Assembly: GCF_032854445.1 (NCBI RefSeq) | Contig: NC_088305.1 | Coordinates: forward strand, 11,579,717 to 11,643,716 | DNA: 64,000 nucleotides | Direction: 5' to 3' | From: Liolophura sinensis | Taxonomy: Eukaryota > Mollusca > Polyplacophora > Chitonida > Chitonidae | In this document: positions 1-32,747 of the stretch, piece after piece | How the letters are laid out: each line of letters begins with the position of its first letter | Position numbering within the stretch: position 1 is the first letter of the stretch | Notes under the pieces: generated by a model | Database searches by the model: none | What the model was told of the DNA's origin: nothing | The model's input: only the letters and a program-made list of their open reading frames with translations | Translations under genes and position numbers: made by a program

Positions 1-489
1 GAACCACATATCTACGAAAGTACAAGACTTAATTAAGTTTATGTTATTTCTCCAATTTATTTGTACTACGTCGGAGTCTATTAACTCATTTACGTTAATT
101 CCAAAGGTTTGTTGGTTGCAGATGTGTTAAACGTCTATGAGATAGTATATACATGTGAACTACCACAAAACGTATAAAACGTCTAATTGAAGATAAATTT
201 AGTGAAAAGAACCTTATAATCAATCCATAGGAAAAATGAATATATTTTACATCTCGGTCAGGTGAATTGAAAACAGACGTTAGGTTTCGATCATTAAAAC
301 AACATGAGCTTACAAATACTTTACTTGTCGGACATCTGCATTTGTTATACAATTTTCTGCAGTACTAATGAATAAATATATACAATACATTATTCTGCAA
401 GAGAATGCTCGCGTGTTTTAGTTGTGTATCATTTAAAAATTTTCCAAGTGTCATTGCTTGTGGGTCCTTAAAGACAATAACAAGTCAGC
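1..489. other. AT-rich stretch, nothing recognised
   Basis: No splice-consistent exon, RNA gene or repeat could be recognised here. Short open frames lack any recognisable motif. Confidence 0.5.
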
Positions 490-640
490 AGGGCGCTCGT
501 GTGTTCATTTGCACATTGTGTGCATATCCGTGCGTCATGCGTTGGGAAGTTCATCAGTGAGACACCAACTGTCGGTGGTTTACGCCAAGCACTCCGGTTT
601 TCCTCCACCTATGAAAATGGCCGTTGGCGACAATAAACAC
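490..640 (+). mobile_element. SINE family 4 (tRNA-like, diverged fragment)
   Basis: This stretch matches the reverse complement of 51832-51900. Both read as a GGGAAGTTC-like block, then CGGTGGTTTAC-like, then CGGTTTTCCTCCAC. The same family occurs at 43135-43375. It probably derives from a tRNA-headed SINE whose head is not clear in this copy. Confidence 0.45.
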
Positions 641-1284
641 CTTGACATATACAGAACAACGATGCTAATCGGTTAATGCAATTAGTATATATGTTTATGT
701 ACTTCTGGTTTTGATGTTCAGACGCCGCATTAATGGATACACCACTTATACAGTCACGGCCAGGGGTTTAAGGCCTGTGGCCACTGGTCCTCGACTATCT
801 TTACATATGTATACTAAAAAAACATACTTTACATATATGTACAAAATAACTGCTCATTTTCACAAAGATGTCATACATCTGCGATAATCGCTCATTTAGG
901 ACAATGGTACTGTAATGGTGATGTATAAAATATTGTACGACAAATGTACGATAAAAAAATATTGGCGTATAGCGCTTTGTGAAAGTGGGCCCTGGACAGT
1001 GGGAATATTTTCCTGCCAATCTCTTTTTTTATATATATATAACGTCATAGTTTCTTTGTAATTGTGCTCGTAAAGGAAAGACGTAGTTCACAAGGACTGC
1101 AATGTAACAGCAGAAAATAAAATGTTTTACACCGTGTGGAACTGGATTCTTTAGGCCGGAATGTACATAGGCCTATACACGTATAACTACAGAATCAAGA
1201 CCACAACGGATTTTCGTCAGCACCACTTAGATGGTTGCTAGAACTGTCTGTGTGGTAAAATAGCCGACAAGGTCTGGATTCGAC
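641..1284. other. Unannotated AT-rich stretch
   Basis: I see no gene or recognisable repeat. A short (TA)n run sits near 1030. Confidence 0.4.
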
Positions 1285-1390
1285 TGATTGATTGATTTAG
1301 ATACACACCATAGACCTTTTACCGGAATTCAGTTATTATGGTTGGAGGAAACCGTGTGCCCTGCATTGTGGGTAAACTGGACCGAAAATT
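1285..1390 (-). mobile_element. SINE family 1 relic (very diverged)
   Basis: A TTGATT-rich tail is followed by a block like TTATGGTTGGAGGAAACCG, the reverse complement of the family 1 central domain. Tail and body are strongly eroded. Confidence 0.4.
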
Positions 1391-1617
1391 AACATCTAAA
1401 GAGAAAACTGATCAACCATCCACACTCACTATTTTCCAGACTTTCACTCATTTGGTTGTTGTGATAGGAAATCAACATCTCGAGGAAACTGGAAAATGCA
1501 CTAGGAAACTGGAGTTTTAAGCTGTAAAGCTGTAAAAGCCTGAAACCTTGTGTAGCGATTTGGTCACGAAATAATAATAAATCTTGAAATTAGTCCAAGA
1601 ATCCATTATTTGATTGA

Positions 1618-1768
1618 CTGATTGATTTGATTGGTGTTATACACCATACTCAAGAGTAGTTCACTCGGATAACGGTGGCCAACATTATGGTGGGAGGAAA
1701 ACAGGACCAACTGTAGGTTGCTGACAGCCCTTCTCACGTAGGACCTGAGAGGAAGTCAGTTTCAGCTG
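1618..1768 (-). mobile_element. SINE family 1 fragment
   Basis: Read on the minus strand it has the core block CCTCCCACCATAATG, the AGTATGGTGTATAACACC-like end and a CAAAT tail. The tRNA-like head is missing. Confidence 0.65.
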
Positions 1769-1835
1769 GGCACAGCAATCTTATTGGTGATAAGTTTCTG
1801 AGTTATTATGCTGCGCTAGCATGTCCAAAGTTTGA

Positions 1836-2110
1836 TTTACTTACTTTACTGAAGTCATACGTCGTACTCAAAAATATATCACTTACACCTTGTATACTTA
1901 TTTGATTGAAGTTATATGTCCTACTCAAAAATGTATCACTTATACCCTGTATGACAGTAGCAAGTATTATGGTGAGAAGAAACCGGGACAGAGCGCCAGG
2001 GAAACCCACTACAATCCACAGGTTTCTAGTAAAAACGACCAGAGAGGAAGCTAGCATGAGCTGGACTAGAACTCACAACGGCCACATTTTTGAAAAGCTC
2101 ATGGGCCAAT
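1836..2110 (-). mobile_element. SINE family 1 copy with duplicated tail
   Basis: The core and part of the tRNA-like head are present (1950-2110). The 3' end motif occurs twice in succession (about 1845-1890 and 1905-1960), which suggests a local duplication or two nested tails. Confidence 0.6.
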
Positions 2111-3233
2111 AAACTTTCAACCCCCTATCACACCCCACCCCATCTCACCCAACCCAATATTTCATGTCAAGGTATCTAACACATCAGACACATATGTACG
2201 GTATGATAGGAGTATTTTATTAAAATATTTTATATAAGGAAAAGGATATGCGGTTACCATGACAACCGCGGAAATTAACAAATGTGAGTCGCGACAAATC
2301 GTCATCTACGCATCCACCAAGAATTAAAACTCTTTGTGGAAAACAACAGGAGGTATAGTCCGGACACACATACGGACGGACAGAGGGACAAAATCGCTAT
2401 AACATAATACGCGTCGCTCAATGGCGTGGGCGTATAAAAATTGAACATCTGGATTTGCATCATTTAATCTTATATCTCTGACATATATTAATGAGTATAT
2501 ATTCATAAAAATCAGACTTCTTACAGGAGAGTACAATTTATGCATACAAAGTTAACAGTCACTAACAACGAATTCGTATTAATTTTTTTTCTGTTTTTTT
2601 GAATTAAAAATTAAATGCAATAATCCTCATCCACTAATCCTTTCCAAATTTCTCAGTGCTGAAAAAAAAATGCTTTTAAAAACTTTTGACGTCCTGATAT
2701 TTTGTGCTTTCAAGCAGGTTCAAGAACCAGAGTTAAGTATGGACCTCTAATGTGGAGACAAACGGACACTATGTGATAGTTTATTTAACAGCACATTCAA
2801 GATTTAATGCAATATGACATTATAACAAAATCAAGTACACTCATACTTACTTATATCCAAATTTATTTAAAAATTCAAATTTTTAGCTGAACCTGGGCTG
2901 TTCAATAAATTTTTCATGGTGTACGTTGCAAGGGAGACAATATCGTTTTGATGCCTGGTATACAGTATGCAGTAACTAAGAAAGAGACTTCAGATGTATT
3001 TAGCTTATTAAAAGAACAAGAAACCTTTACAGATCTTCATCAGTAGCCAGTAAAAAAAAAATTCGCGTTACAATCAATGGCAAGCCACTGTGGAGCAAAA
3101 TATTCAAATGCATTTCATTTTTTTACATCTGGCAAAAAAAAAAAGAAACAAAATAAAAAAACCCCACAGAAAAATAGCACAATAGAGTATGTATATACGG
3201 AGGTACGAGTATAATGTACAAAGTTGTATATTG

Positions 3234-3296
<63 letters not shown>

Positions 3297-4590
3297 TATA
3301 CGTGACATATGTATTATATGCTTAAAAGAATGTAGTTTGTCGTATATTTATGCCTAAGGGGGTTTGTTGGGGGGGGGGGGACACTTTAACCAAACCGAAA
3401 GCAATCCTGACGTGTAATCTCCTGTTTTGTTATGTAATATCAAAAACTTCTGAGTAGTTACAGTGTTCGGTAAAATAATATCCCGAGGGTTCAAATATGA
3501 CAATAGAAGCCAAACAAGAGCAGCACATCTGGAACAGATGTTTAGATATGGAAAATATTTCTACCTTAAATGTACATTTATAGCTTGGGAACTCTTAGAT
3601 GATGTTCACTCTAAAAACAAGGCATTCAGAGAACACCGGTGGCTCACCTGATTGAGCAGGTGATAAAAATGCATAATGTTCAAGCCATGTGATACGCTCA
3701 AACACTGACCTCGAAACCAAAATGAAGAAGAATAATGGACATTGTCATACATAGATATTATTATCTAATTAGACAGTGTTAAGATCTTGCCATTAAATCA
3801 ACAAGAAAGGCCAAACATTACCCTGTTACAGATATGATGGTCTACAGTATGTGTAAGGATTGCAGAGCAGAGACTTCGTCTGTTATGGAGTCGTTAATCA
3901 TTGCAGTGGTAAAAGACACTGTGGGATTTCACGCACAAATTTACCTCAGAGGTCTTCAATACGCAAATTGCGCACTGCACTTGGCAATTGGGTATGGGTG
4001 GTAACTGCAACCCTATGACTGGCCAAAAACTTCAACAAAACTGGACAACGCCACCGCCAGCCTCTGATCTCCCTCTCACTATACCTCTCCTTGCATCGTT
4101 CAAGTGAGCTAAAAAATTGGCACTTTAAAGGCTTCTCTTGACTGGATTCAAGACTTTTAAAGTTTTTTTGTGATCCAGTATTAATACAAATACCTGATGG
4201 CCGCTAAGTTTGGCTAGCTGCACCCTGAACTCTTCAGACTCAGGGGGTAATATTGTATAACCTTCAGTAAATTTCCGTACAATGTATGCATCTCGCTCTC
4301 TATGCCTACTGCGATGTGATGGCCAACAGGGGGTGTTGTGTAATTTGTGTATACGAGTCACAACCAATAATGTCATTGTATTTCTCGGAATTCTGTCCTC
4401 TCACTAACAGAACACAGATCTAATTATTGTTTCTGAGTTTCTGATCAAAAACTCGTCAAAAAAGCAAACTTTTCTCGTCTACAGTTTACAGACACTGGAC
4501 TTTATATTTACGTTATGGCTGATCTGACAGTTTCCTTCTTAATTTGTTTATTTATATGTATTTAAATGCAAGTTGAGTGCATTCATGAAT
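2111..4590. other. Gene-free stretch
   Basis: Apart from the (TA)n tract at 3238-3292 and a poly-G run near 3369-3380, I see nothing I can name. No candidate exon has both splice sites and a recognisable motif. Confidence 0.45.
3238..3292. repeat. (TA)n microsatellite
   Basis: About 55 bp of uninterrupted TA dinucleotides. The tyrosine-isoleucine frames read across it are artefacts. Confidence 0.95.
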
Positions 4591-4591
4591 G

Positions 4592-5865
4592 CAGATAGCA
4601 CATCCCAAGAGTGAAAAGTAATTACAGCAATTTTCTGTGTATAGTAAACGAGCCACCATAGGCGTAAATGTATAGATGTGTTATGTAGAGCAAATGAGCC
4701 AACATGGGCCCAAATGTATACAGTTGTTATAAATGAGTTATCATAGGCCCATATGTATACAGTTGTGTTATGAGGCGTACATGAGCCATCACAGGCCCAA
4801 ATGTATACAGTTGTATTATGAGGAGTAAATGAGCCATCACAGGCCCAAATGTATACAATTGTGTTTCGAGGAGTAAATGAGCCACCATCGGCCCAAATGT
4901 ATACAGTTGTGTTATGAGGAGAAAATGAGCCATCACAGGCCCAAATGTATACAGTTGTGTGATGAGGAGTAAATGAGCCATCACAGGCCCAAATGTATAC
5001 AGTTGTGTGATGAGGAGTAAATGAGCCATCACAGGCCCAAATGTATACAGTTGTGTGATGAGGAGTAAATGAGCCATCACAGGCCCAAATGTATACAGTT
5101 GTGTGATGAGGAGTAAATGAGCCACCATCGGCCCAAATGTATACAGTCGTGTTATGAGGAGTATATGAGCCACCATCAGCCCAAATGTATACAGTCATGT
5201 TATGAGGAGTAAATGAGCCATCATAGGCCCAAATGTATACAGTTGTTATGATGAGTAAATGAGCCACCAATGGCCCAAATGTATACAGTTGTGTTATGAG
5301 GAGTAAATGAGTCACCACAGGCTCAAATGTATACAGTTGTCATGTAGATAGCACATCCCAAGAGTGAAAAGTAATTACAGCAATTTTCTGTGTATACTAA
5401 ATAAGCCACCATAGGCCTAAATGTATAGTTGTGTTATGTAGAGTAAGTCAGCCACCATCGGCCCAAATGTATACAGTTGTTTTATGAGTAAATGAGCCAT
5501 CACAGGCCAAAATGAATGGTTGTGTTAGGAGGAGTAAATGAGCCAGCACTGGCCCAATTGTATACAGTTGTGTTATGAGGAGTAAATGGGCTGCCATCAG
5601 CCCAAATGTATACAGTCGTGTTATGGGCAGTAAATGGGCCATCATAGGCCCAAATGTATACAGTCCTATTATGAGGAGTAAATGAGCCACCATGACTCAA
5701 ATGTATACAGTTGTGTTATATGGAGTAAATGAGCCACCATAGGCCCAAATGTATACAGTTGTGTTATGAACAGTAAATGAGTTATCATAGGCCCAAATGT
5801 ATAAAACTGTGTTATGAGGAGTAAATGAGCCACCATCAGCCCAAATGAATACAATTGTGTTATTG
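4592..5865 (-). repeat. 48-bp minisatellite, open in two minus-strand frames
   Basis: About 24 units have a period of exactly 48 bp over most of the array (for example 4991 to 5039). Because 48 is divisible by three, the minus strand reads a 16-residue repeat such as TTVYIWACDGSFTPHN over 4548-5318. A second minus frame reads MVAHLLLITQLYTFGP over 4727-5176. A unique 55-bp flank starting GATAGCACATCCC occurs both at 4592 and at 5346, so the array was duplicated together with its edge. I see no splice sites, family motif or promoter that would make it a gene; a repeat-protein exon cannot be excluded. Confidence 0.85.
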
Positions 5866-5984
5866 CATTAAAATAACATGTAGAAAAATAAGGAAAGCAT
5901 TGTTTTGGAGGTAAATTACATAGTTGCCATGTCAGCATTAACATCTTTCATGATATTTGTTTTTCAAATATTCATACCCGTAAT

Positions 5985-6165
5985 CCACATGTTGACATTT
6001 TGTAGTCAATATTTTACCACCTGTAGTCTGTATGTTGACATCTGTAGTTTGTATTTTAAGACCTGTACTTCACATGTTGACACCTGTAGTCTGCATGTTG
6101 ACACCAGTAGCCTGCATGCGGAAACCTGTAGTCTGCTTTTTGACACCTGCAATCTGCAGGTGGTC
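5985..6165. repeat. 21-bp minisatellite
   Basis: About eight imperfect copies of a 21-bp unit close to GACACCTGTAGTCTGCATGTT. The period is seven codons, so the plus strand reads a Cys-rich heptad (VDTCSLH) that is probably fortuitous. Confidence 0.8.
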
Positions 6166-6324
6166 CCTCCGCTCCCCCTCCCCTCCGTTCCTCTAGCTCT
6201 GAGCCTAGTTGGTCGTCTCCAGTTCACAGTACTTGGCACTGGCTGCCCACAGGCCCTTCTGTAACTCCATATCCTGGGATTCTTCGGAGGACACTGCTTC
6301 CTTCATGTCACGGAAATACTTCCC

Positions 6325-6510
6325 ACTTACACCTGAAAGGACACCAACACTTCTGAGATCTACACCTCAGCCCCTCAGGGAAAATATCCCACTGACACCT
6401 GAAAGGACACCAACACTTCTGAGATCTACACCTCAGCCCCTCAGGGAAAGTATCCCACTGACACCTGAAAGGACACCAACACTTCTGAGATCTATACCTC
6501 TGCCACCATG
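6325..6510. repeat. 66-bp tandem repeat, three copies
   Basis: The start ACACCTGAAAGGACACC is repeated at 6329, 6395 and 6461. Units are nearly identical. The period is 22 codons and the plus frame stays open, but nothing else supports coding. Confidence 0.85.
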
Positions 6511-6819
6511 GGTCTCAAAAGTTGTACATATGGTTATCTATCTGGAACTTTTCATTTACATCCAAAAAAACTTTCCTAAATTACCTCAAAGTTCGTCCAT
6601 AACTACGTTCCTCATTTCTAAGAGTTATACTAATTTTATAAAGTTGTTTTTAGGTTTGTCTGGAAGGTAAGATGATACGGTATTGGGAAAATATTTAATT
6701 AATATGTTGTAGTACTTTAATTTCTCTAATTTTGCACTTTTGTGTTCAAAATTTTAGGGTGTCTTTTCATATTTTTGCAGAATTATAGGTAATCTGGTGA
6801 AGTATCAATGAAACCAAAA

Positions 6820-7330
6820 ATACACACGATTCAGAAAAAGCACTTTTTTCAGTGGAATTTATACATACAATTATTATCAAAATTAGGCTAACACGATTTG
6901 TTTGTGTCACTAAGGATGCAAGCTTTGTAAAACCTATGCAAATTATTTCTCCATAACCCATAGTTCTCTCAATAATGTTTGGGGCCTCCGTGGTTCAGTC
7001 GGTTAGCGCGCTAGCGCAGCGTAATGACCCAGAAGCCTCTCACCAATGCGGTCGCTGTGAGTTCAAGACCAGCTCATGCTGGCTTCCTCTCCGGCCGAAC
7101 GTGGGAAGGTCTGCCAGCAACCTGCGGATGGTCGTGGGTTTCCCCCGGGCTCTGCCCGGTTTCCACCCACCATAATGCTGGCCGCCGTTGTATAAGTGAA
7201 ATATTCTTGAGTACAGCGTAAAACACCAATCAAAAAACAAAAAAAACAAAAAATCAAGAATGTTTAAAACTACTGGTCGCAGTGGTGGTTGAAACGCTTC
7301 AGGAATTAAGGTACATGTATACGGAAAAGA
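6820..7330. repeat. Dispersed repeat split by a SINE
   Basis: The left part (6830-6978) matches 7650-7775, and the right part (7247-7315) matches 7775-7835 and 50815-50875. A SINE at 6980-7246 interrupts it, flanked by TCAATAATGTTT and TCAAGAATGTTT, a likely 12-bp target-site duplication. Confidence 0.65.
6980..7246 (+). mobile_element. SINE family 1, full-length reference copy
   Basis: The head is tRNA-derived, with an A-box-like TGGTTCAGTCGGTTAGCG and a B-box-like GAGTTCAAGACC. A conserved central domain follows (around CCGGTTTCCACCCACCATAATG). The 3' end is ATTCTTGAGTACAGCG...AAACACC and an A-rich tail. The layout resembles the Meta-type SINEs described in invertebrates, but the family assignment is from memory. 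It is probably mobilised by a partner LINE. About 28 copies or pieces lie in this window, in both orientations. Confidence 0.85.
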
Positions 7331-7639
7331 AAAATGAAATGAGTTTTCCAAATGTACAAGTCACTGAATGAATATGAGGTCTCCAAAACTGGGCAATTTG
7401 TGTACTACGACATTTTTGAGTACTCTCTGTTAAAAAAAGGTGTGTACTACATTACACAAGACTAAAATACTATTGCTCTGTTGGTGTACTTGAGAGTTTC
7501 TTTGTTTAATTTACTTTACATGATGCTGGCCAATGTTCCATGGGTGTTGGAAACAAGAGTGCCTTGAGTCAAATCTCATACAAATTATACTGGTACACTT
7601 TTCCACATGTAACATACTGTAAATCTTCAACCTCTTCAA

Positions 7640-7840
7640 CCGCTAAATCACATTTCTCAGTGGAAGTTATGAATACAATTATTACAAAAATGATTTGTTT
7701 GTGTCATGAAAGATGCAAACTTCTTTAAACTTTGCAAATTATTTGTCTCTGCCTCATAGTTCCCTCAGAATATTTCAAAATATTGGTTGCTGAGGTGTTT
7801 GAAAAGGTTGAAGAATGAGGGTATGTGACATGTCATATTG
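7640..7840. repeat. Second copy of the dispersed repeat at 6820-7330, without the SINE
   Basis: It aligns with 6830-6978 and continues into the part found at 7247-7315, so it represents the unoccupied site. Confidence 0.6.
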
Positions 7841-7952
7841 GTGTGTGACAAGTAGTCTCAAGAGAACTTCATGTAAGGCCAAATAATAGAACAAGGTTGA
7901 CCCAAGCATGGTATTGAACCCACGTCATGTGTGAGCAAGCAATTTATTCATT

Positions 7953-8213
7953 TATATAATTCGATTGGTGTTTTATGCCGTACTCAAGAATATTTCACTT
8001 ATATGATGGCAGCCAGCATTATGGCAGGAAGAAACCGGGTGGAGTCCTTGGGAAACCCACGACCATCCGCAGATTGCTGACAGACCTTTCTACATATGGC
8101 CGGAGAGGAAGCCAGCATATACTGGACTTAAACTCACAGTGACTGCATGGGTGAGAGGCTCTTGGGTCATTGCACCACACTGATGTGCTAACCACAGCCA
8201 CAGAGGCCTGTAT
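7953..8213 (-). mobile_element. SINE family 1, near full length
   Basis: Tail, central domain and head are all present in reverse orientation. The head carries substitutions in the A-box region. Confidence 0.75.
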
Positions 8214-8594
8214 GGCTAAACAATTAAATACTAAACTAAACCATTCACTCAAGATCCGCTCCCTAAAATGGATGCTGAAATGATGTCAGACAAGCAAACC
8301 CTTAAGAGAAAAGATAGCATCAGACTAAACATATTTACTCATTTGACTGATGATTTATTTCACTTCTACCACTGCCGCCAGCTTTATGGTGGAAGGAACC
8401 TGGGCATATGCAGCAATAATGTACCTCAAATAAAGTTTACAAAAGCATACCTTTATAACTTTGTGATGTTAGCATAGCCAAGACATTGCTGTTCAAAGTA
8501 AGACAGAAAATCAAAAGCCCAATCATGTAATTTCTAAAACCCGAAAACAAATCTCTTTCCGCTGACATCACGCAAACCCAGTTTAGATTTTTAG

Positions 8595-11500
8595 CTACAT
8601 GGGTGCCAATGAGGCAACATCATGTTCCACTTTCTCTAACATGGGCGTGTCAGGTAGTACAGACTCACCTTTCAGACTCTCATTAGTAGCCAGGTCTTTG
8701 ATTGCTGTAGCTCCCTGTTCCACTGTACGCGTTGTGTTTTTCAGCCAGAAAATAGGCTTCAGAATAGTGCGCAGCATAAACTTTGCGAACCCATTGGCGT
8801 TACGGATAAAATTGGTGTCGGGAATAAATCCTGGATCAGAGGAAAATTCATTTAGATCACCAGTAAAGAAATCAGTGATAAATTTGCTAAGCCCACCTTA
8901 AAAAGTTAAAGTTCTCGCTACCAACTTATTACGTCACTATTATCTATTTATATATTTGATTGGAGTTTTACGCCGTACTCAAGAATATTTCACTTATACG
9001 GCGACAGCAAGCATTATGGTGAGTGGAAACCGGGCAGAGCCCGGGGGAAACCCACGACCATCTGCAGGTTGCTGGAAGACCGCCCCACGTACGGCCGCAG
9101 AGGACGCTAGCATGGGCTGGACTTGAACTTACAGCGGCCGCATGTTTAAGAGGCTCCTGGCTCATTATGCTGCGCTAGCGCGCTAACCAACTGAGCCACA
9201 GAGGCCCCCGCCCCCGTCACTATTATGAAATTACCTGCAACTTGCACTGTCCAGCTGATGAGCTATCACCACTAGCTTCCTATTTGGTCGTATGTGAAGA
9301 AGTCTGGCGTTCTGCCTGGTTTCCTCCCATCATAAAACTGGCAGGCGTCGTATAAGTGAAATCTTCTTGAGTACAGCATAAAACACCAAATCAAATTCAA
9401 TACAAAATGATGAGCTAACTCACATGTAAATATGACAAAAGTCAGTTTGTCTTACCTGGACAAACATTTGACAGTGACACCTGTACCTTCCAGCTGACGA
9501 GCCAACTCACAGGTAAACAGAACAGTTGTCAGTTTGTCTTACCTGGACTCAGACAGTTGACAGTGACACCTGTACCCTCCAGCTGACGACCCAACTCACA
9601 GGTGAACAGTAGTCAGTTTGTCTTACTTGGACAAGGACAGTTGACAGTGACACCTGTACCCTCCAGCTGACGAGCCAACTCACAGGTGAACAGAACAGTA
9701 GTCAGTTTGTCTTACCTGGACACAGGCAGTTGACAGTGACACCTGTACCCTCCAGCTGATGAGTCAACTCACAGGTAAACAGAACAGTAGTCAGTTTGTC
9801 TTACCTGGAAATAGACAGTTGACAGTGACACCTGTACCCTCCAGCCGACAAGCCAACTCACAGGTGAACAAAACAGTAGTCAGTTTGTCTTACCTGGAAA
9901 CAGACAGTTGACAGTGACACCTGTACCCGCCAGCTGACGAGTCAACTCACAGGTGAACAGAACAGTAGTCAGTTTGTCTTACCTGGACACAGGCAGTTGA
10001 CAGTGACACTTGTACCCTCTAGCTGACGAGCCAACTCACAGGTGAACAGAACAGTAGTCAGTTTGTCTTACCTGGACACAGACAGTTGGCCGTCACACCT
10101 GTACCCTCCAGCTGACAAGCCAACTCACAAGTAAACAGGACATTAGTCATTTTCTCTTACCTGGACAAAGACAGTTGACAATGACACCTGTACCCTCCAG
10201 CTGACAAGACAACTCACAGGTGAACAGAACAGTTGTCAGTTTGTCTTACCTGGACACAGACAGTTGACAGTGACACCTGTACCCTCCAGCTGACGATCCA
10301 ACTCACAGGTGAACAGTAGTCAGTTTGTCTTACCTGGACACAGACAGTTGACAGTGACACATGTACCCTCCAGCTGACGAGTCAACTCACAGGTGAACAG
10401 AACAGTAGTCAGTTTGTCTTACCTGGACGCAGGCAGTTGACAGTGACACCTGTACCCTCCAGCTGACGAGTCAACTCACAGGTGAACAGAACAGTAGTCA
10501 ATTCGTCTTACCTGGGCAATGACAGTTGACAGTGACACCTGTACCCGCCAGCTGACAAGCCAACTCACAGGTGAACAGAACAGTAGTCAGTTTGTCTTAC
10601 CTGGACACAGATAGTTGACAGTGACACCTGTACCCTCCAGCTGACGAGTCAACTCACAGGTGAACAGAACAGTTGTCAGTTTGTCTTACCTGGACACAGA
10701 CAGTTGACAGTGACACCTGTACCCTCCAGCTGACGAGTCAACTCACAGGTAAACAGAACAGTAGTCAGTTAGACACCTGTACCCTGACAAGCCAACTCAC
10801 AGGTAAACAGAACAGTAGTCAGTTTGTCTTACCTGGACACAAGCAGTTGACAGTGACACCTGTACCCGCCAGCTGATGAGTCAACTCACAGGTAAACAGA
10901 ACAGTAGTCAGTTTGTCTTACCTGGACACAGACATTTGACAGCTATACCTGTACCCTCCAGCTGACGAGTCAACTCACAGGTAAACAGAACAGCAGTCAG
11001 TTTCTCTTACCTGGACACAGACATTTGACAGGTATACCTGTACCCTCCAGGTGACGAGTCAACTCACAGGTGAACAGAACAGTAGTCAGTTTGTCTTACC
11101 TGGACGCAGGCAGTTGACAGTGACACTTGTACCCTCTAGCTGACGAGCCAACTCACAGGTGAACAGAACAGTAGTCAGTTTGTCTTATCTGGACACAGGC
11201 AGTTGGCCGTCACACCTGTACCCGCCAGCTGACCAGCCAACTCACACGCAAACAGAACAGTAGTCAGTTTGTCTTACCTGGGCACAGGCAGTTGACAGTG
11301 ACACCTGTACCCGCCAGCTGACAAGCCAACTCACAGGTGAACAGAACAGTAGTCAGTTTGTCTTACCTGGACAAAGACAGTTGGCCGTCACACCTGTACT
11401 CTCCAGCTGACAAGCCAACTCACAAGTAAACAGGACATTAGTCATTTTCTCTTACCTGGACAATGACAGTTGACAGTGACACTTGTACCCTCTAGCTGAC

Positions 11501-14500
11501 GAGCCAACTCACAGGTGAACAGAACAGTAGTCAGTTTGTCTTATCTGGACACAGGCAGTTGGCCGTCACACCTGTACCCGCCAGCTGACCAGCCAACTCA
11601 CACGCAAACAGAACAGTAGTCAGTTTGTCTTACCTGGGCACAGGCAGTTGACAGTGACACCTGTACCCTCCAGCTGACAAGCCAACTCACAGGTGAACAG
11701 AACAGTAGTCAGTTTATCTTACCTGGACAAAGAAAGTTGGCCGTCACACCTGTACTCTCCAGCTGACAAGCCAACTCACAAGTAAACAGGACATTAGTCA
11801 TTTTCTCTTACCTGGACAATGACAGTTGACAATGACACCTGTACCCTCCAGCTGACAAGACAACTCACAGGTGAACAGAACAGTAGTCAGTTTGTCTTAC
11901 CTGGACACAGACAGTTGACAGTGACACCTTTACCCTCCAGCTGACGATCCAACTCACAGGTGAACAGTAGTCAGTTTGTCTTACCTGGACACAGACAGTT
12001 GACAGTGACACCTGTACCCTCCAGGTGACGAGTCAACTCACAGGTGAACAGAACAGTTGTCAGTTTGTCTTACCTGGACACAGATAGTTCACAGTGACAC
12101 CTGTACCCTCCAGCTGACGAGTCAACTCACAGGTGAACAGAACAGTAGTCAGTTTGTCTTACCTGGACACAGACAGTTGGCCGTCACACCTGTACCCTCC
12201 AGCTGACAAGCCAACTCACAAGTAAACAGGACATTAGTCATTTTCTCTTACCTGGACAAAGACAGTTGACAATGACACCTGTACGTTCCAGCTGACAAGA
12301 CAACTCACAGGTGAACAGAACAGTAGTCAGTTTGTCTTACCTGGACACAGACAGTTGACAGTGACACCTGTACCCTCCAGCTGACGAGTCAACTCACAGG
12401 TGAACAGAACAGTAGTCAGTTTGTCTTACCTGGACACAGGCAGTTGACAGTGACACCTGTACCCTCCAGCTGAAGAGTCAACTCACAGGTGAACAGAACA
12501 GTAGTCAGTTTGACTTACCTGGACTCAGACAGTTGACAGTGACACCTGTACCCTCCAGCTGAAAAGTCAACTCACAGGTAAAAAGAACAGTAGTCAGTTT
12601 GTCTTACCTGGACACAGGCAGTTGACAATGACACCTGTACCCTCCAGCTGATGAGTCAACTCACAGGTAAACAGAACAGTAGTCAGTTTGTCTTACCTGG
12701 ACACAGACAGTTGGCCGTCACACCTGTACCTTCCAGCTGACGAGCCAACTCACAGGTGAACAGAACAGTAGTCAGTTTGTCTTACCTGGAAATAGACAGT
12801 TGACAGTGACACCTGTACCCTCCAGCCGACAAGCCAACTCACAGGTGAACAGAACAGTAGTCAGTTTGTCTTACCTGGACAAAGACAGTTGGCCGTCACA
12901 CCTGTACCTTCCAGATGACAAGCCAACTCACAAGTAAACAGGACAGTAGTCATTTTCTCTTACCTGGACACAGACAGTTGATAGTGACACCTGTACCCTC
13001 CAGCTGACGAGTCAACTCACAAGTAAACAGAACAGTAGTCATTTTCTCTTACCTGGACAAAGACAGTTGACAGTGAGACCTGTACCCTCCAGCTGACGAG
13101 CTAGCTCGTAGGTAAATAGAATATTAGCCAACTTGGAGTCCTTGTAAGCTTGGCCACCATTATAAGTGCCTTCTTCATCAAGCATCAAGTTGTCAAGGGA
13201 CATGGGACGCAATTCTAATGCAAAAAAAGCAGAAGAAGATTAATCTGATTTGTGTGATTCGTGCTTTAGCATTAAGGCATCCACAATGTACTTCAAAAAT
13301 AAAGTTTTGAGAACTTTTGTCATAAATTTTTATGCTATAATTTATACATATATTGTTACACTGTAAAAACTAGTTTGAAAAACATTCTTGCTGAAACTTT
13401 TAAAAGTTTCCATATTCAAAATTTTGGGAATGTGGCCCCTTCTCCTTTTCATATTTGTTCACAATAAACCAGAACTAATAACTTTGACACCAGGGTCTGT
13501 ACAAGCCATGTGTGGGGGATTCAATGCCATCAAGTTGATATCACAGGTGCATAAACAAAGATATTTGTGTAAAAACATTTGAGTCAAAGTTTTTGTCACA
13601 ACCCTGGATGAAATGTATTAAATCTGTCTGTGTTTAATGTATGTTTGAAGGGAGTCTAAATGGAATCAGTGAGGGAGGGAAGGATGGGGAGGGGGTGTGA
13701 AAGGGGGGGGGGGGGGGTGTTAGGGGGGGGGGGGGTATTAAGCAGTTCCTGCATTTCCACTGAAGTTCACCGATAACAAAATTACTGACAATATTCAACC
13801 ACTTACAGAAAATATGCATAAAAAAGATTAGTTGATTTATGGATTTAAAAAATGCCTCCAACAGGAAAACAAGATTTCCATTTCTTTGGCATAACTATCT
13901 ATTTCCCTTAAAATCAATATCCTTGTTTTAGACTTCCTTTTCATGTCTCACACTCTTTTCTGATTTGCTCACGGTTGGGTGCTATAACTGAAAAATTGTC
14001 TTCATTTCACAGAGGACAGATCTGTTGTAACAGTTACCAACCCTTCCTCCCCGATCCCTTCATCTTGATATCATGCAGGCCGGAGGTGACAACCACAATT
14101 CTGATGTCCTGTGTCTCCTTCGCTCGATCCTTCAGTGCTGGTAACAGGAGGTTGGTCAACAAGAAATGACCTGAAAGATTGAAAGACAAAGATTGGTTGA
14201 GTTTGTTCTGTGTCTGATTGGCTCACTCCTTAAAGCTGGTAACAGCTGACTGGCCAACAACCAATGACCTGAAATTACTAGACATAGATTAGTTGAGTTA
14301 GAAATAAAATCAAATAAAATAAACAACTGGATTAACTTATGTCGTTGCTTCTCACTGTCATAAAAAAAGAAGTACATGTAATATGGTTCTCAAAATCTTT
14401 TGGTTAACGAGAGGAAATGCGTGTATATACATGGCCACGGGGTAAAAACACAACAAAACAAAACAGAACACTTCTTGGGTTTACCTAAATGATTTGTTCC

Positions 14501-15887
14501 CATTGTCATCTCAAAGTTGTCCTTTGTCACATGACGCTCCGTGTCGGCAAAGTCCTTGGAGAGGCCAGCATTGTTGATGAGGATATCCAGAGGTTTGCCA
14601 GACGCCAGGAATTTTTCCACAAACCCTCTGATAGAGGACATGTCAGCGAGGTCAAGCTGGAATACAGCCAATCAGTGTCCAGTCATATCACGCTCGTGCC
14701 CTTAGAGAGCTACTCCCAACTTTACAATCCTTTATATTGCTGTATAAAGCCAAGCAAACATTCGAAATATGTTTGTTGGTGGTAATCCCTCTGACAAACC
14801 AAAAATTCCAGTTTTTATCACGTTATTCATGGAATATTTCTTTCCTTTTTGTTTCTTTTTTTTATTTGCTCAAAGTTACTTTATTTAGAATCTCTCTTTT
14901 TCATTAGGGGGGCAAAATGTTTTTTTCGTTTCTCGTGTCACATGGGATTCGTACTGATATTTGTTGCCTGTCCTTCCAGAATTTTATCTGTGCCAGTTCA
15001 ACATTTTTATTAAATACCAGTTTATTGTGCAATTACTGAAAATCTCCCCCATAACTGCACATTAACGCTGAAGAAATGGTATCTGTATGGTCCGTATTTG
15101 TACTGTTACTTTGCAATAAATAAGGACCCTGTTTTCAATAAACAATTTGTTTATTTTTTATACTTACGATCAGAAGGTTACGACTTGCAGGTTTACATGG
15201 ATACTCTAAGTTATTATTTTCCTTAATTCTGGCTAATGGAGAAGATATAGATTTTAAAGAAATTAACATTGAGAAAAATATAAATGATTTATCAAAATCC
15301 CCCCCCCCCCCCCCCAAAAAAAAAAAAAACTTTAGGCCACCTTTATTTGGAGGGCCAGTTGGATTAAGCCCTAGGAACATATTTTTAGATGGTGAACCAA
15401 ATATGACAGCATGTCAGGTTTGTGCAATGGGAGAAGGTTAGATTTACTGAGATTGAGAGTGATTATGGTGAATATAGAAAGAGTAACAGTGTTGTGATGT
15501 CAGAGTACCTTAATTGCCACTGACAGTATACTCCACACAGCTCAATACAATTCAAAAATTTGAATTTAAAAAAAAATCCCAAAAGTAAGTATTTAGTAGA
15601 CATAATTTTAGAGTGGTTTCATTGGTTATTTCTCCTGATGTTCATTTTCAATTTCACACTGTCTTTTCCTTTAATGAAAAGAGCATTTCAATCGTGTGTA
15701 CCTGCATAAATGTAGCCTTGGCTTCAGGAAATTCTTTGATTATTTTCGCCACCGCGTCATTGCCATTCTTCTCTGAGCGACAGGCCAGTATAACATCATA
15801 CTGTTCAGCACACAGTAACTGGCTGACTGCAAACCCCAGTCCACTATTGGCACCCGTGACGATCACCACTTTTTCCTTGCCTGACAT
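8595..15887 (-). CDS. Short-chain dehydrogenase/reductase, retinol dehydrogenase 11-14-like
   Basis: An NAD(P)-dependent oxidoreductase of the classical SDR fold, closest in layout to the retinol dehydrogenase 11-14 group. Substrate cannot be told from sequence. Five coding exons: 15887-15702, 14656-14485, 14170-14042, 13214-13053 and 8830-8595. Phases agree at every join and give 294 residues plus stop, a normal family length. Visible motifs are the cofactor loop TGANSGLG (11-18), NNAG (90-93), the helix Asn (117), the active-site Ser in VVTSG (149) and YKDSK (Tyr186, Lys190). The last exon continues the post-PG loop [15 protein letters not shown]. The ATG lies just inside an exon whose acceptor is at 15901-15902, so a 5' non-coding exon is expected upstream. 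The exon 3 donor (GTTGGT) is weak. The last intron is 4.2 kb and mostly an 89-bp array copied from exon 4. The gene is head to head with UNG. Confidence 0.93.
8945..9208 (-). mobile_element. SINE family 1, full length, in dehydrogenase intron 4
   Basis: All three segments are present, the head ending at 9208 with GAGCCACAGAGGCCC on the plus strand. It lies between the last exon and the 89-bp array. Confidence 0.85.
9272..9395 (+). mobile_element. SINE family 1, 5'-truncated
   Basis: Central domain and 3' end only, ending AAACACCAAATCAAATTCAA. It abuts the start of the 89-bp array. Confidence 0.7.
9430..13052 (-). repeat. 89-bp minisatellite made of an exon end plus its 5' splice site
   Basis: About 40 head-to-tail units; donor landmarks fall at 9538, 9622, 9711, 9800 and so on, giving a period of 89 bp with some shortened units. 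On the minus strand a unit is 70 nt homologous to the 3' end of dehydrogenase exon 4 (frame ...[18 protein letters not shown], equivalent to residues 194-217). It then has CCAG, a GTAAGA donor and 19 nt homologous to the start of intron 4. The true exon (13053-13214) is continuous with the array. Units lack the catalytic YxxxK segment, and 89 is not a multiple of three, so they are not substitute exons. Most keep the donor; a few carry changes (about 9625, 11188, 11544). Confidence 0.93.
13700..13738. repeat. Poly-G tract
   Basis: G-runs of 10-13 bases interrupted by TGTTA. It lies in dehydrogenase intron 3 and is low-complexity. Confidence 0.9.
15299..15330. repeat. Poly-C/poly-A junction
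   Basis: A run of about 16 C bases followed by about 14 A bases, in dehydrogenase intron 1. Confidence 0.9.
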
Positions 15888-19900: not shown

Positions 19901-20823
19901 CCTGTGTATGTGGTTAAACAGCAATGCAGTAACAACAATTTTAGTCAATTATGAACCTAAAAAAGTGCACAAATGCGGCCATGTAGCAAAATTTAGTACT
20001 AATTTAACCCTTGTTCACCCCTTCCTAGGCTCATGGCTTGTCCTTCTCAGTGCCTCGAGGAGTTCGCGTCCCTCCATCTTTGAAAAACATCTACAAAGAG
20101 TTGGCCACAGACGTGCCTGGGTTTAAGGACCCCAGCCATGGCTGTCTGCTAGAGTGGGCAGAGCGTGGAGTGATGCTACTGAACGCAACTCTCACAGTAG
20201 AGTAAGTAGAGATGTATACTTCTGGACTTTTGTATCACAAAGTTGAAATTTAGCTGTTTAACGAAGACAGTTAATTACAAATGTATGTGCATAATGTAGT
20301 AACGTTTTTAATATCCAAATACAGACGACAAGAATTGGATCCCATTCTTTAACGAATTAATTTTTCATGAATCTAATGGATTTGTCTAGATGAAGGTGAC
20401 CCTTAACCTATAGGCTCACCTGTTCAAAGCAAATTCCCCATTATCAGAGTACATTACAACAAACACTTCTCATTATCAGTGTATATTTCAATGTTTGTTG
20501 TTGTTCACTGTTTAGTGTACGTGTATACATGTATTTCTCACAGAGCCCACCAACCAAACTCTCATGCCAAATATGGCTGGCAGAAGTTTACCGACAAGGT
20601 CATCAAGGTTATCAGCGACTCCTGTGACGGAGTTGTCTTTATCCTTTGGGGAGGCTTTGCTCAGAAGAAGGACAAACTGATCAATGGCAACAAACATACG
20701 ATCATCAAGGCCGCTCATCCGTCCCCTCTGTCGGTCACAAAGTTTCTTGGATGTAAGTGTTTCTCTAAGGCCAATGCCGAGCTCGCAAAGAGAGGGAAAT
20801 CCCCAGTGGACTGGACCTTGTAA
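16961..20823 (+). CDS. UNG: Uracil-DNA glycosylase (family 1, UNG)
   Basis: Removes uracil from DNA by cleaving the N-glycosidic bond, starting base-excision repair. Exons: 16961-17066, 18871-19067, 19636-19683, 20029-20201 and 20544-20823. All phases fit and give 267 residues. The water-activating loop GQDPYH is at 108-113 (Asp110), LLNATLTV is at 167-174, and the leucine-loop motif HPSPLS is at 233-238 with catalytic His233. The C-terminus reads SPVDWTL. The start MPKRKSTGN is followed by KKIRF, a short basic stretch typical of a nuclear form. No PCNA-binding box or mitochondrial leader is visible, so an alternative upstream first exon is possible. Intron 1 carries two SINEs, one ending only 18 nt before exon 2. 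The last exon and 2 kb downstream are duplicated at 30.2-33.6 kb. Confidence 0.96.
17562..17850 (+). mobile_element. SINE family 1 in UNG intron 1, head partly duplicated
   Basis: The segment GGGGTTAGCACGCCATCAAGGC-like occurs twice (about 17569 and 17605) before the body. The rest runs to AAACACCAATC and an AATAAATA tail. Confidence 0.75.
18681..18841 (+). mobile_element. 5'-truncated SINE family 1 next to the UNG exon 2 acceptor
   Basis: Flanked by an 11-bp target-site duplication, TACTTTAGCTC at 18670-18680 and 18842-18852. The insertion lies inside the pyrimidine-rich region feeding the acceptor at 18869-18870. Confidence 0.85.
19322..19464 (-). mobile_element. SINE family 1 fragment in UNG intron 2
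   Basis: 3' end and central domain on the minus strand, without a recognisable head. Confidence 0.65.
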
Positions 20824-23030
20824 TTGTCTCATTAATAGTTTAACACAACATTTTCTACTTTTTGCAGAAAATGAGGTGAAACATACTCTGTTCAGGGCAC
20901 TTTGGAAAATGTGTCAAAAGCAGATATGTTCAGTACACTTGCCTAGATTTGGCGTGCGTTGTTTAGTTGTTTACTCTGCTTGGGAGATAAAGTGGTCATT
21001 TCTACATTAGAATAGTTACTTTTTGATTTTGACTGATGCTTTTCTTGGAGCATCTTTCTGTTGTAATACATACACCTGTATGATCTTACATAGTGTAATG
21101 TTTGACATGTATACATGTACTTGAATAGGCAGCGATACTTTAACTCTCAGACAATTCTGTTAGAACAAAGAAAAAAAAACAAATTTAGACATATTTATTT
21201 TGTTTTGATATTATCACTTTTAGAGTTTTAGTCAAAGTCTTATTAAAATGTCAATGTTGGTATTTTTGATACACTTTTGAATTTCAGAAAGCAGTAATAC
21301 AAGTTTGGCATTGAGAATTAGCAACAAAAAAATGCAACTTTCCATACAGTTTTTTAATTTTGATGTACATGAAGCTCTGACCACAGTTAAAGCAGTCATT
21401 ATCATTTTTGATATGCTTTTTCTTTTAGATATATACTTGTAACTGTATTACCAAAAAACAACAACAACAACGTATGTCACATATCACTGTTTGAACTCTG
21501 TCGCACTTCCATCACATTTTAACTGGTTGTACTCAACTAATTATAGCGTATTTCTAGCTGAGAAGAAATGATCACCACAGTGTTTGTTCCCATGGGTATA
21601 TAATACATAGGGTAAGAGAGGGGATAATATAGTTTTTTGTCAACTGAACTCAACAATGGGGACAATATAGGTAGATTTGCCTCATGTTTTTTGGTTCCAT
21701 GCCGTGGAATATTTTCTTATTGACTTGTCAGTGAAGCGCCTCCGAAAGTAATTCTTAGCGTATATCTTGCTTCGAGCTTAGCTTAAAAAGTACGGCATGT
21801 TTTGAGCGGAGGCTTTGCGCACATGCGGAGCACAACAGGGATGCCGGGATTTGCGTATTAAATACCGTAAATTACAAAAATTCATGACTCAGTGCATTCT
21901 GTGTGAGAAACAGTGTTGAGCAAAATATTAGCGCTGGTATCTCAAAAAGAACTGCATGTATTGACCTGAAAGATCCATCAGTGATTTTCTGAGTGCATAT
22001 TAATTACCGTAAATTACCAAATTTACACCTTTACTACTTTATGTGTTGAGCAGAAGTTGGGCATTCATGTGTCTTGACCTCTTTGGCAGACTCAGTATCA
22101 AATCTAAGGGGTGAAACTTGGCAGATGTGTTGAGGAATATATGTACATGTTTGTGAGGTGATGTTTGTTTTGTGCTGTGGTATTTCAGTTAGCGGGCAAC
22201 TCTAAATATCTGTATGTCAGCGTTTGAACCATCCTGCTATAAGGGCACACTGTTCAGATATGATAAAAATTATAGCTGACAGCTGGTGTTGAAGTGGAGA
22301 AAAGAAAGGCATAAGCTTTAACCTGACACATTGTCAGTATCTGTGATCTTAAGACCCCAGACCTTTTACAGATTGTACGTGACGTGATTTGCTGATGCTG
22401 ATAGGGATTTTCTTTTTGTTTTTTTGTTTTTTTTAACAACATTCCAATGTGTGAAAAAAATGTTGAGATAATATATTTATGGTTTTATTATTTTGGTACA
22501 AAAATGGTTACCTGAGGACTGTCATAATCCACACCAAAGATGTAGACGTTTGCCAAATATTTCAACTCACAATAGCATTTTCTCCCCTTTATCTTTGGGA
22601 TATTGTGGGCTTAATTTGCAGTTTTGCTTTGTTGTCGATAATCATGGTGAGCTTTACCCCTGATTGCTGTTGTTCTGTTATATTTTGTTGACAACTAAAT
22701 TCTGTATTGTTGAGAAAGTAAAACGTGGTAAAAAAGTATTTTCTTGAGAAACTAATGCTTGGTCTGTTGTATTTCTTTGAGAATGTAGCACTGGGTGAGA
22801 AACACCTTGTTGAGAACATTGCCATCATCATACATTGCCCTCCCACTATAATGCTGGCTGCTGTCAAATATGTGAAATTTTGTTGATTTCAGCGTAAAAC
22901 ACCAATAATAAATAAATAAACATACGTGGCTAGTTACAATTTTTGAGAATGTAAAACTTGATAAAAATATTTTCTTGAGAACACAATACTTGGTCAGTTA
23001 TATTTTCTTGACAATGTTAAACTTGGTAAG
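20430..23030 (+). repeat. Source copy of a segmental duplication (UNG exon 5 and downstream)
   Basis: Aligns in direct orientation with 30215-33600 over exon 5, its 3' flank (20824-21600) and the stretch at 22370-23020. Spacing differs because of deletions and a transposon in the other copy. Confidence 0.8.
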
Positions 23031-23275
23031 AAATATTTTCTTGAGCATTTAAAACTTGGTGAGAAATATTTTCTTGAGCATTTAAAACTTGGCCAGTTAT
23101 GTCTTGTTGACAGTGTAAAACTTGGTAAGAAATATTTTGCTGAGAACATAATACCTGGCCAGTTATGTTTTGTTGAGAGTGTAAAACTCGGTAAGAAATA
23201 TTTTATTGAGAAAATAAAACTTGGAAAGAAATATTTTGTAAAGTAAGTCATACTCAGTGAGAAATATTTAATTTA
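22715..23275. repeat. Short interspersed tandem repeats, 30-40 bp
   Basis: Repeats of a unit like AACTTGGTAAGAAATATTTT followed by CTTGAG and variable bases, about a dozen imperfect copies, interrupted by a SINE tail at 22833-22920. A shorter version occurs at 33400-33600. Confidence 0.7.
22833..22920 (+). mobile_element. SINE family 1, 3' end only
   Basis: CCCTCCCACTATAATGCTGG through AAACACCAATAATAAATAAA. Confidence 0.65.
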
Positions 23276-29042: not shown

Positions 29043-30112
29043 TATATACAGGGTGCCAAAGAAAAAGTAACGGTTGAATTTTCACCACTAAAAATCTGTT
29101 TTGTACAAAGATTGCTAGTTAATCTAATACACTGTCATTTTCAACAGTTCGGTTAGCCCAGTTTCATTCAATGACTTAAGCAAGTTTGCTTCTCGTCTTT
29201 TAGGTACAGGCGAACAGAGGTTGGTGGAATACTTCCTTGTTACATCACTAATATCCACAATGTAACGAAACTAAACTAAACAATGTCACAAAGCTAAAAT
29301 ATGATCTGAGAACAACTAAAACCTATGGTAAACATTAGCACTGGGTAACTCAAAACATTCATAAATGAATTCAGTTAAGTGAGCTAATACTGGTAGTAGG
29401 TCCTATTTTATTATCAAACTTTTAGCCTCAGCAACCAGTGCAGTTCTCCAGTCAAACAGCAACGGTTTTAATTCATATTTAATATACTAGCACACAATTC
29501 ATTTGAGGCTAAGTACAAAATTAAATAATTGAAGTTAAATCTGCTATTAAGTCTTAAACCAGTTTTGAACAGCCTGGCCCCAAATCTCATTTAGCCGTGA
29601 CACCAAGTGACAAAAAGGACGTTTTTCTCATCAGTATCTTGTGAAACCAACATGTTCGGTTTATGCGTTCATTGTTCTCATCAGCATCTGGTGTAACCAA
29701 CATGTTTGGTTTATGCGTTCATTGTTCTCATCAGCATCTGGTGTAACCAGCATGTTCGGTTTATGCGTTCATTGTTCTCATCAGCATCTGGTGTAACCAA
29801 CATGTTCGGTTTATGCGTTCATTGTTCTCATCAGCATCTGGTGTAACCAGCTTGTTCGGTTTATGCGTTCATTGTTCTCATCAGCATCTGGTGTAACCAG
29901 CATGTTCGGTTTATGCGTTCATTGTTCTCATCAGCATCTGGTGTAACCAACATGTTCGGTTTATGCGTTCATTGTTCTCATCAGCATCTGGTGTAACCAG
30001 CATGTTCGGTTTATGCGTTCATTGTTCTCATCAGCATCTGATGTAACCAGGATGTTCGGTTTATGCGTTCATTTTTCGGTAGAGTAATGGTATCTAATTC
30101 AAAGTTTGTTTC
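29043..30112. repeat. Dispersed repeat R2, copy A, possible non-autonomous DNA transposon
   Basis: Begins TATACAGGGTGCCAAAG and matches 43942-44622 nearly throughout. In the other copy an inverted ACCCTGTATA is seen at the right edge, suggesting short terminal inverted repeats. This copy lacks that right end and runs into the UNG-derived duplication. It contains an internal 50-bp array. Confidence 0.6.
29625..30075. repeat. 50-bp tandem array inside R2
   Basis: About nine copies of a unit containing CATCTGGTGTAACCA and TTATGCGTTCATTG, with anchors at 29661, 29711, 29761, 29811 and so on. The R2 copy at 44.5 kb has one unit only. Confidence 0.9.
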
Positions 30113-31216: not shown

Positions 31217-32747
31217 CCAGGCAAAAGAAAGGTTTCACCGTATTTTTTGTCATAAAAAAAGTAAAAGCGCGGTTCCGGGTTTGATTCTAAGCAGGACTTA
31301 GTGTATGACTGCATCGTTTCCTCTACCAGAACGCATCGTCACGAACGCAGCAATTTGAATTGTGAAATTGCGACCACATGCAAAACGTCCTTTTGAGGCA
31401 TGGCTCGTGATGCGCGTGCGGTAATGTTGCATAAATACTCTTGCTCGAAAGAGCAGACATTCAGTGACCGAAAAAACACCAACAGTATGCCAAGACTTAC
31501 GCAAGCGCATCGAGACCAGGCCATCAGTATGTCCACCATGGGAGTCTCGCAACGTCACATTGCAAGAACGTTCAACTGCAGCCAAACCACCATCAGGAGG
31601 TTGTTGATACGCTATCAGCAGACAGGCCAGACCCAAGACAGACCAAGATCGGGAAGACCGAGGGTAACAACTGCGGCTGAAGATCGCTACATCCGGCAGA
31701 TCCACCTTCGAAACCGATTCGTCACGGCGGCGTCAACAGCGTCGACGGCACTAGGCCATGTCATCAGCCCAAGAACAACACTGCGTCGTCTTCGTTCAGC
31801 TGGTTTACGACCTTACCGCCCCTTCCGTGGGATGGCCTTGACCCTTTTACACCGTCAACGCAGATTGCGATGGGCACGTATTGTACGTCGGTGGCAGCGA
31901 CGTGACTGGGCAAGAGTGCTGTTTACAGGCGAGAGCAGGTTCTGTCTATTCAGGAACGATGGCAGAGTTCGAGTTTTCCGACGAAGAGGCGAGCGTCTCG
32001 CGCCAAACTGCGTAAGAGAGGTTTATCCGTTTGGAGGCGGAGGCGTCATGGTTTAGGGACCAAATGAAGACGCAGCTGGTTATTGTGTGAGGTAATCTGA
32101 CTGGCCAGCGATACGTTGATGAGGTACTGAGACCTGTCGTCGTTCCTTTCTTCCAACGACAGCCAAGAGGATCGATCTTGCAACACGACAACGCAAGACC
32201 TCACACTGCCCGCATTGTTACAGACTACCTCGAGACCGCAAACGTCATCGTGTTGCCCTGGCCAGCCAACTCACCAGACATGAACCCCATTGAGCATCTC
32301 TGAGATCACCTTGACCGCCGTTTGAGACAGCTGGTGCCTCCTCCAACTAACCAACAGGAACTTGAGCAAGCTCTGTTAAACCTATGGAACCTTATCCCTG
32401 TTGGCGTCATCCGGCGACTGACGACGTCAATGCTGAGGCGTGTGCTTGCTTGCATTGATGCCCAGGGTGGCCACACTCGCTACTGATGACTGTAGCCCTT
32501 CATTTCTGTGGATACTGTGACTTTACACGCACTTGCCAGTTAACTTTATTTTTGTGTAATTTTTTCTTCTGACCCCTTGTCTATTTCATTGTGTTTTGTG
32601 GCCAATTGAATGCCAATATTTTAAAGCCTTTTTGAGAGAATATTTCACTATGATTCCTGTTTATAAACCAATCTTCTTAATTCTTATATCTGCCTTTGTT
32701 TTTCTTTTATGGGCTCAAGAAGTGGGTGAAACCTTTCTTTTGCCTGG
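31217..32747 (+). mobile_element. Tc1/mariner element with terminal inverted repeats
   Basis: Ends are CCAGGCAAAAGAAAGGTTTC on the left and its inverted complement at 32725-32747. TA flanks both sides (31215-31216 and 32748-32749), the Tc1/mariner target duplication. Length is 1531 bp. It is inserted into the UNG-derived duplicate, so it is younger than the duplication. Confidence 0.9.
31487..32486 (+). pseudogene. Tc1-type transposase, inactivated
   Basis: The start MPRLTQAHRDQA leads an N-terminal helix-turn-helix region (GVSQRHIARTFNCS) and a linker RPRSGRPR. The catalytic core is LFTGESRF, where the first Asp has become Gly, then ILQHDNARPHTA, then SPDMNPIEHL. There are 34 residues between the second Asp and the Glu (DD34E). 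A stop replaces the Trp codon after GGGVMV (32054-32056) with a frame change just after. Two further TGA codons interrupt the C-terminal half, one at the Trp position of the HLWD motif. Length without breaks is about 333 codons, normal for the family. Confidence 0.9.

Follow-up and report, generated by a model that had tools for sequence, protein, structure and literature searches.

An exon–intron junction repeated some 40 times as a minisatellite within a short-chain dehydrogenase gene of Liolophura sinensis

The DNA considered here, 64,000 nt of Liolophura sinensis (assembly GCF_032854445.1, contig NC_088305.1, positions 11,579,717–11,643,716; hereafter the window, to whose positions all coordinates refer), contains a short-chain dehydrogenase (SDR) gene whose fourth intron is largely occupied by tandem copies of the exon–intron junction at which that intron begins. 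The gene model places six exons on the minus strand at 6205–15887: exon 1 (coding part 15702–15887, with the ATG at 15887), exon 2 (14485–14656, also covered by the Pfam adh_short match), exon 3 (14042–14170), exon 4 (13053–13214), exon 5 (8669–8830, acceptor CCAG|G) and exon 6 (6205–6332, stop codon included). The joined reading frame is open over 312 residues, all five introns are GT–AG, and the protein matches Pfam adh_short (PF00106) at 1.1e-33. Besides this domain it carries the TGxxxGxG, NNAG and YxxxK motifs of a classical short-chain dehydrogenase/reductase, with YKDSK present in the translation; the gene is apparently a working one. The frame of exon 4 aligns with solved SDR relatives, and its end does so as expected (NSLYPG opposite NCLCPG in the three alignments shown). 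Because of this alignment and the adh_short match, we take exon 4 as the ancestral sequence and the repeats as derived from it.

The 89-bp copies begin directly behind exon 4, whose true donor (CAG|GTAAGA) follows position 13053, and run head-to-tail on the minus strand through 9408–13052, filling ~3.6 kb of the 4,222 nt of intron 4. Tandem Repeats Finder reports two 89-bp arrays (9408–10770, 15.4 copies; 10784–13121, 26.3 copies), and a scan anchored on the donor locates 41 unit ends, the first at 13053, where the real exon ends, and the last at 9456, the array's own ends running from 12964 down to 9456. The minisatellite thereby resolves into 40 units with recognisable ends (38 with a GT donor), one donor-less unit and a partial last unit. 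Of the 40 intervals between successive ends, 35 measure 89 nt, three 84 nt, one 87 nt and one 143 nt; the 143-bp step we read, from spacing and sequence, as a single unit that would have lost its donor at an internal deletion point (10770–10783). The original prediction of about 40 tandem copies in this intron, continuous with a true exon at 13053–13214, is borne out by the scan, and that exon, its coordinates correctly placed, is part of the open 312-residue model. With 9205–13214 masked, blastn (E up to 0.1) found no copy of the unit elsewhere in the window, and the unmasked control gave 46 matches, all inside the array.

Most of the unit is coding exon. The last 70 nt of exon 4 are identical to the unit consensus at 61 of 70 positions, with a mean of 82.4% over individual units, so the claimed resemblance to exon 4 is real. 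Counted upstream from the donor, agreement between exon and consensus is 43/45, then 18/25, then 9/13, and thereafter 5/13 and 9/33. The ungapped likeness extends 13 bases past the 70 nt (9/13; P about 0.001 by letter shuffling), and these added bases, translated in the exon frame, give KL both for the exon and for most units. The unit had been described as 70 nt of exon plus 19 nt of intron; its identity as an exon–intron junction stands, but the ungapped extension moves the split, so that the unit is probably ~83 nt of exon 4 end followed by GTAAGA only (83 + 6), with coding-type likeness spanning ~83 nt. Two results count against the new split: 9/13 is reached at one further offset among the 89, and when the upstream part of the exon is aligned locally without constraint the score is 9.0, with shuffles averaging 7.4 and reaching 15. 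As that alignment lends no support, the extension rests on its continuity with the adjoining match.

The copied donors are close to uniform. Thirty-six of the 40 are exactly CAGGTAAGA, the nine bases of the true donor (CAG|GTAAGA); one is CAGGTAAGT (CAG|GTAAGT), one is CAAGTAAGA (CAA|GTAAGA) and two lack GT. Scored with a weight matrix based on the vertebrate consensus, 37 of 40 equal or surpass the true donor, and the mean energy with which the copies pair to the 5' end of U1 is −10.53 kcal/mol vs −11.00 for the true donor. The true donor's score is equalled or exceeded at 45 minus-strand GT sites of the window: the array region holds 38, counting the true donor itself, and the other 7 lie outside it; within the gene, the donors of exons 1–3 score 5.0, 5.3 and 4.3, that of exon 4 11.0 and that of exon 5 12.3. 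The array can accordingly be called a splice-donor minisatellite, its tandem units each carrying a donor (GT kept in 38/40) and running on from the true one, and the predicted picture of a real donor trailed by dozens of equivalent donors is what was found. Eight units, those with the GGTGTGACGGCC variant, have a second donor-like site, CAG|GTGTGA (score 8.5), inside their exon-like part, for example at minus-strand positions 12901 and 12723.

The same unit ends are also acceptor-like, contrary to the earlier statement that no acceptor-like sequence accompanies the copies. Each CCAG| is preceded by a pyrimidine-rich stretch, and since copying the donor copied CCAG along with it, the unit ends are juxtaposed AG|GT sites. 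Averaged over 40 sites, of which the true exon end is one, their acceptor score is 2.70; this exceeds the acceptors of exon 2 (−0.80) and exon 6 (1.73) of the same gene and falls below those of exons 3–5 (7.80, 5.05 and 4.13), and the median unit-end AG ranks in the best 2.8% of 3,556 minus-strand AG sites. When a donor score of at least 8 and an acceptor score of at least 0 are asked of the same position, 41 minus-strand sites pass, 38 in the array region and 3 elsewhere. Those 38 are the true donor and 37 of the 40 array unit ends, which by these vertebrate-consensus matrices have the acceptor and donor juxtaposed around AG|GT of a recursive-splicing ratchet point; on the plus strand of the array only 2 sites pass as donor and acceptor together.

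Use of an array donor would add whole units and an early stop to the message. Joining any one of the 38 alternative GT donors to exon 5 brings in a stop codon too early, 75 to 3,583 nt upstream of the exon 5 junction, so the early stops foreseen for read-through into the array are predicted for every one. The TGA responsible sits in the intron start common to all array donors, and the predicted protein has 220 residues and ends CPGKRK (translation shown for three donors). A single extra unit lengthens exon 4 from 162 to 251 nt. The copies are, however, also arranged in a way that would permit repair: 742 of 820 pairs of unit boundaries are GT–AG bounded, i.e., copies lie between the GT and AG of the duplicated segment as in introns born by AGGT tandem duplication, and for 37 of the 38 alternative donors the retained stretch starts with GT and ends with AG, such that one further GT–AG splice would restore the exact message.

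Units differ from one another (mean pairwise identity 0.899, minimum 0.798). In their exon-like part the distinct variants comprise 18 synonymous, 33 non-synonymous and 0 stop changes vs 15.2, 34.4 and 1.5 expected; coding constraint on the units is not supported (P 0.23 for excess synonymous changes, 0.22 for missing stops). Donor positions show 3 parsimony steps in 9 sites vs 101 in all 89, a level as low or lower in 7 of 89 circular 9-nt windows (the donor's own included; P = 0.034 for random 9-site sets). Blocks of neighbouring units recur within the array (e.g., units 16–18 and 20–22, 13–15 and 31–33), a pattern that unequal exchange would leave. Mismatches between exon and units number 2 in the 45 nt nearest the donor (43/45) vs 11 in the next 38 (27/38; Fisher P = 0.005), and variation among units is not lower near the donor. 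From this shift in identity, which lacks a matching drop in unit variation, we infer for this one genome that, after the first duplication, sequence was exchanged between the coding end of exon 4 and the array.

At its distal end the array extends at least to 9408, where a SINE-like insertion (9256–9417, flanked by a 10-bp target duplication, TGATGAGCTA, at 9256–9265 and 9408–9417) interrupts the last partial copy. As the insertion breaks that unit, the array is the older of the two; unit likeness beyond the insertion has P 0.009 when the target duplication is counted and 0.28 without it. The SINE-like tail motif TCAAGAATATTTCACTTATACG, which we take to be typical of molluscs, has 17 matches in the window with up to 3 mismatches (shuffle mean 0.00; e.g., 8979–9000), one of them (9349–9370) inside this insertion.

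We consider it reasonably probable, given this anatomy, the site scores, the stops and the GT–AG bounds, that intron 4 holds a junction-born minisatellite, made by tandem duplication and later growth, whose splicing errors would largely cancel themselves through re-splicing. Its origin would be a tandem duplication, to the intron side of the junction, of ~83 nt of exon 4 end plus GTAAGA, followed by growth through unequal exchange or conversion. Each unit runs from GT to CCAG, making every boundary a donor and an acceptor at one AG|GT, in the manner of a ratchet point. The true donor is probably the one most used, as it is transcribed first and gives exon 4 its normal 162 nt; should an array donor be chosen instead, the retained stretch (GT…CCAG) could be removed by a second splice. 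An array that is largely self-cancelling in this way would allow many strong decoy donors to persist, a tolerance that we infer.

Several observations weigh against this account or narrow it. The donor and acceptor matrices follow the vertebrate consensus rather than being trained on Liolophura sinensis, and the pyrimidine tract of the unit end is interrupted by G. Within the array, AG sites scoring 1.5 or more are about as numerous on the plus strand (35) as on the minus strand (36), so acceptor-likeness by itself is not specific to the coding strand. The CAG|GTGTGA sites of eight units would escape the exact-rescue logic. The shift in identity along exon 4 means that more must have happened than one clean duplication, and the low variation of donor positions could hint, suggestively at most, at selection on the donors rather than neutrality.

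The closest rival holds that this is a plain neutral minisatellite: exon definition would always pick the true donor, the 4.2-kb intron would be removed in one step, and the copies would be without effect. The window holds many other tandem repeats (48 Tandem Repeats Finder rows, several for one array), most with few or no strong splice-like sites, which together with the lack of coding constraint in unit variation and an open SDR gene fits such a view. Some use of decoys would nevertheless be expected, with 36 of 40 array donors matching the true one base for base and with the 251-nt exon produced by one extra unit still of ordinary exon size. We regard complete inertness as possible but unlikely.

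A further reading would have the AG|GT sites used routinely, the array forming a chain of ~37 recursive-splicing ratchet points by which intron 4 is removed at least partly in steps of 89 nt or multiples thereof. If true, dozens of equal donors would be made harmless. In a bolder form, some messages would include units as in-frame mini-exons. An open exon of 27 nt, most often GVTVNCLCP, is available in 33 of the 38 units that bear a donor, and an open one of 84 nt in 33 of 38. The acceptors of these mini-exons score poorly (means −1.11 for the 27-nt and −3.88 for the 84-nt form; SDR exon 2, −0.80). We hold the ratchet chain to be doubtful.

Improbable, in our judgement, is a regulatory array, in which copy number would set the use of array donors and so the share of degraded early-stop messages (220 residues), array length thereby tuning the level of enzyme. 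By the usual rule for message decay, a stop ~50 nt before a junction suffices, and the stops of all 38 alternative GT donors (75 to 3,583 nt ahead of the exon 5 junction) are far enough from it. The donor sites are slightly under-varied, in favour of this reading, but the under-variation is statistically weak. That the assembly falsely expanded or joined a short repeat is very hard to credit, as the units differ, the distal end is marked by a SINE-like insertion with its target duplication and the recurring blocks carry differences of their own, though the exact copy number could be wrong.

The SDR gene carries a second junction repeat, at an acceptor. A 66-bp unit in 2.8 copies (6321–6504, minus strand; Tandem Repeats Finder and acceptor scoring) places three copies of the exon 6 acceptor, TTTCAG|GTGT, together with the start of exon 6, at 6464, 6398 and 6332; they are identical over the 30 bases ahead of the junction, and the gene model uses the most downstream. 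Past the junction the copy agrees with exon 6 at 11/12 and then 15/20 positions, with little more beyond (17/33 ungapped); the best gapped alignment has P = 0.0002 by shuffling. If either upstream acceptor were used, the predicted protein would end at 280 instead of 312 residues. Two apparently junction-born repeats within one gene are striking, although the window is rich in tandem repeats.

Other features of the window are of less direct bearing. Just behind the SDR stop codon lies a 21-bp repeat (5988–6158, minus strand; Tandem Repeats Finder), presumably in the 3' untranslated region, and downstream of the coding region a 48-bp repeat (4730–5863) that is partly open in two minus-strand frames. 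An 84-bp repeat (53946–54962, 12 copies), with 8 strong donor-like plus-strand sites and 6 acceptor-like minus-strand ones, may be another junction-born repeat. A 50-bp repeat (29625–30077, 9.1 copies, 96% matches) has 8 acceptor-like sites on the plus strand, and in a 33-bp repeat (22943–23237, 9 copies, consensus with TTGGTAAGAA) no site reaches a donor score of 8. Raw reading frames were scanned with Pfam over 1–15000 (minus strand, two of three frames), 50–60 kb (six frames) and 16–26 kb (plus strand, three frames), and compared with solved structures over 19.3–24.3 kb (plus strand, three frames). On the plus strand there are exons of a uracil-DNA glycosylase (20008–20823; best PDB match 2.1e-49, two stretches), an EF-hand pair (51022–51189; Pfam 1.5e-12) and an open frame of 218 residues (31400–32056), which resembles a transposase of the Tc1/mariner type. 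Rfam at gathering scores gave no match anywhere in the window.

The SDR locus amounts to a natural experiment in splice-site choice, in which ~39 nearly identical strong donors stand behind one exon and nearly all are acceptor-like too. With it one could ask directly whether position, transcription order or exon size decides among donors, and whether juxtaposed AG|GT sites let cells undo splicing errors. As the same gene holds a second case, at an acceptor, the array also suggests how minisatellites seeded by splice junctions may survive inside genes.

The nearest known system is a minisatellite in human IFI6, whose units are reportedly about 12 bp long, with few of them used. That element, in IFI6 (6-16, G1P3), carries multiple splice donor sites (Turri, Cuin and Porter 1995, as cited in PMC4526556 and PMC2572611). 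In both cases minisatellite units supply downstream donors, reported as alternative donors for IFI6 and in the SDR gene predicted from sequence; unlike that of IFI6, the SDR unit is 89 bp long, mostly coding exon, and has in addition an acceptor-like end. The original prediction that a minisatellite of this kind is rarely described is thus fair, although IFI6, as cited, is a precedent. In the open-licence papers searched, mostly by listing, we did not see a long exon-derived array with boundaries that are nearly all donor and acceptor. The same papers included none joining recursive splicing with tandem repeat and ratchet, nor zero-length exon with recursive splice, which is weak evidence.

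Three further systems bear on how such a locus might arise and behave. Internal tandem repeats at exon–intron boundaries of human duplicated genes alter splicing through new introns and average ~30-bp units in 4 copies (PMC2812944); the SDR array likewise repeats an exon–intron boundary, with a far longer unit (89 bp) in 40 copies. Tandem duplication of an AGGT segment is a model of intron gain (Rogers 1989), exemplified by potato RdRp (PMC4974935): copying across an exon–intron boundary puts splice sites at the copy ends, so the copy can be spliced as an intron, which would account for the ability of junction copies to be spliced. Like the SDR 66-bp repeat, the potato copy spans an acceptor, but whereas that case is one duplication giving one new intron, the array has ~40 copies inside an existing SDR intron and no new exon. 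In recursive splicing, finally, ratchet points (zero-nucleotide exons, AG|GT) subdivide long introns (PMC8906543). The SDR sites differ from those known in being mostly 89 nt apart, exon-derived and recognised here from the DNA only, yet they resemble them in having acceptor and donor juxtaposed around AG|GT, repeated along a single intron.

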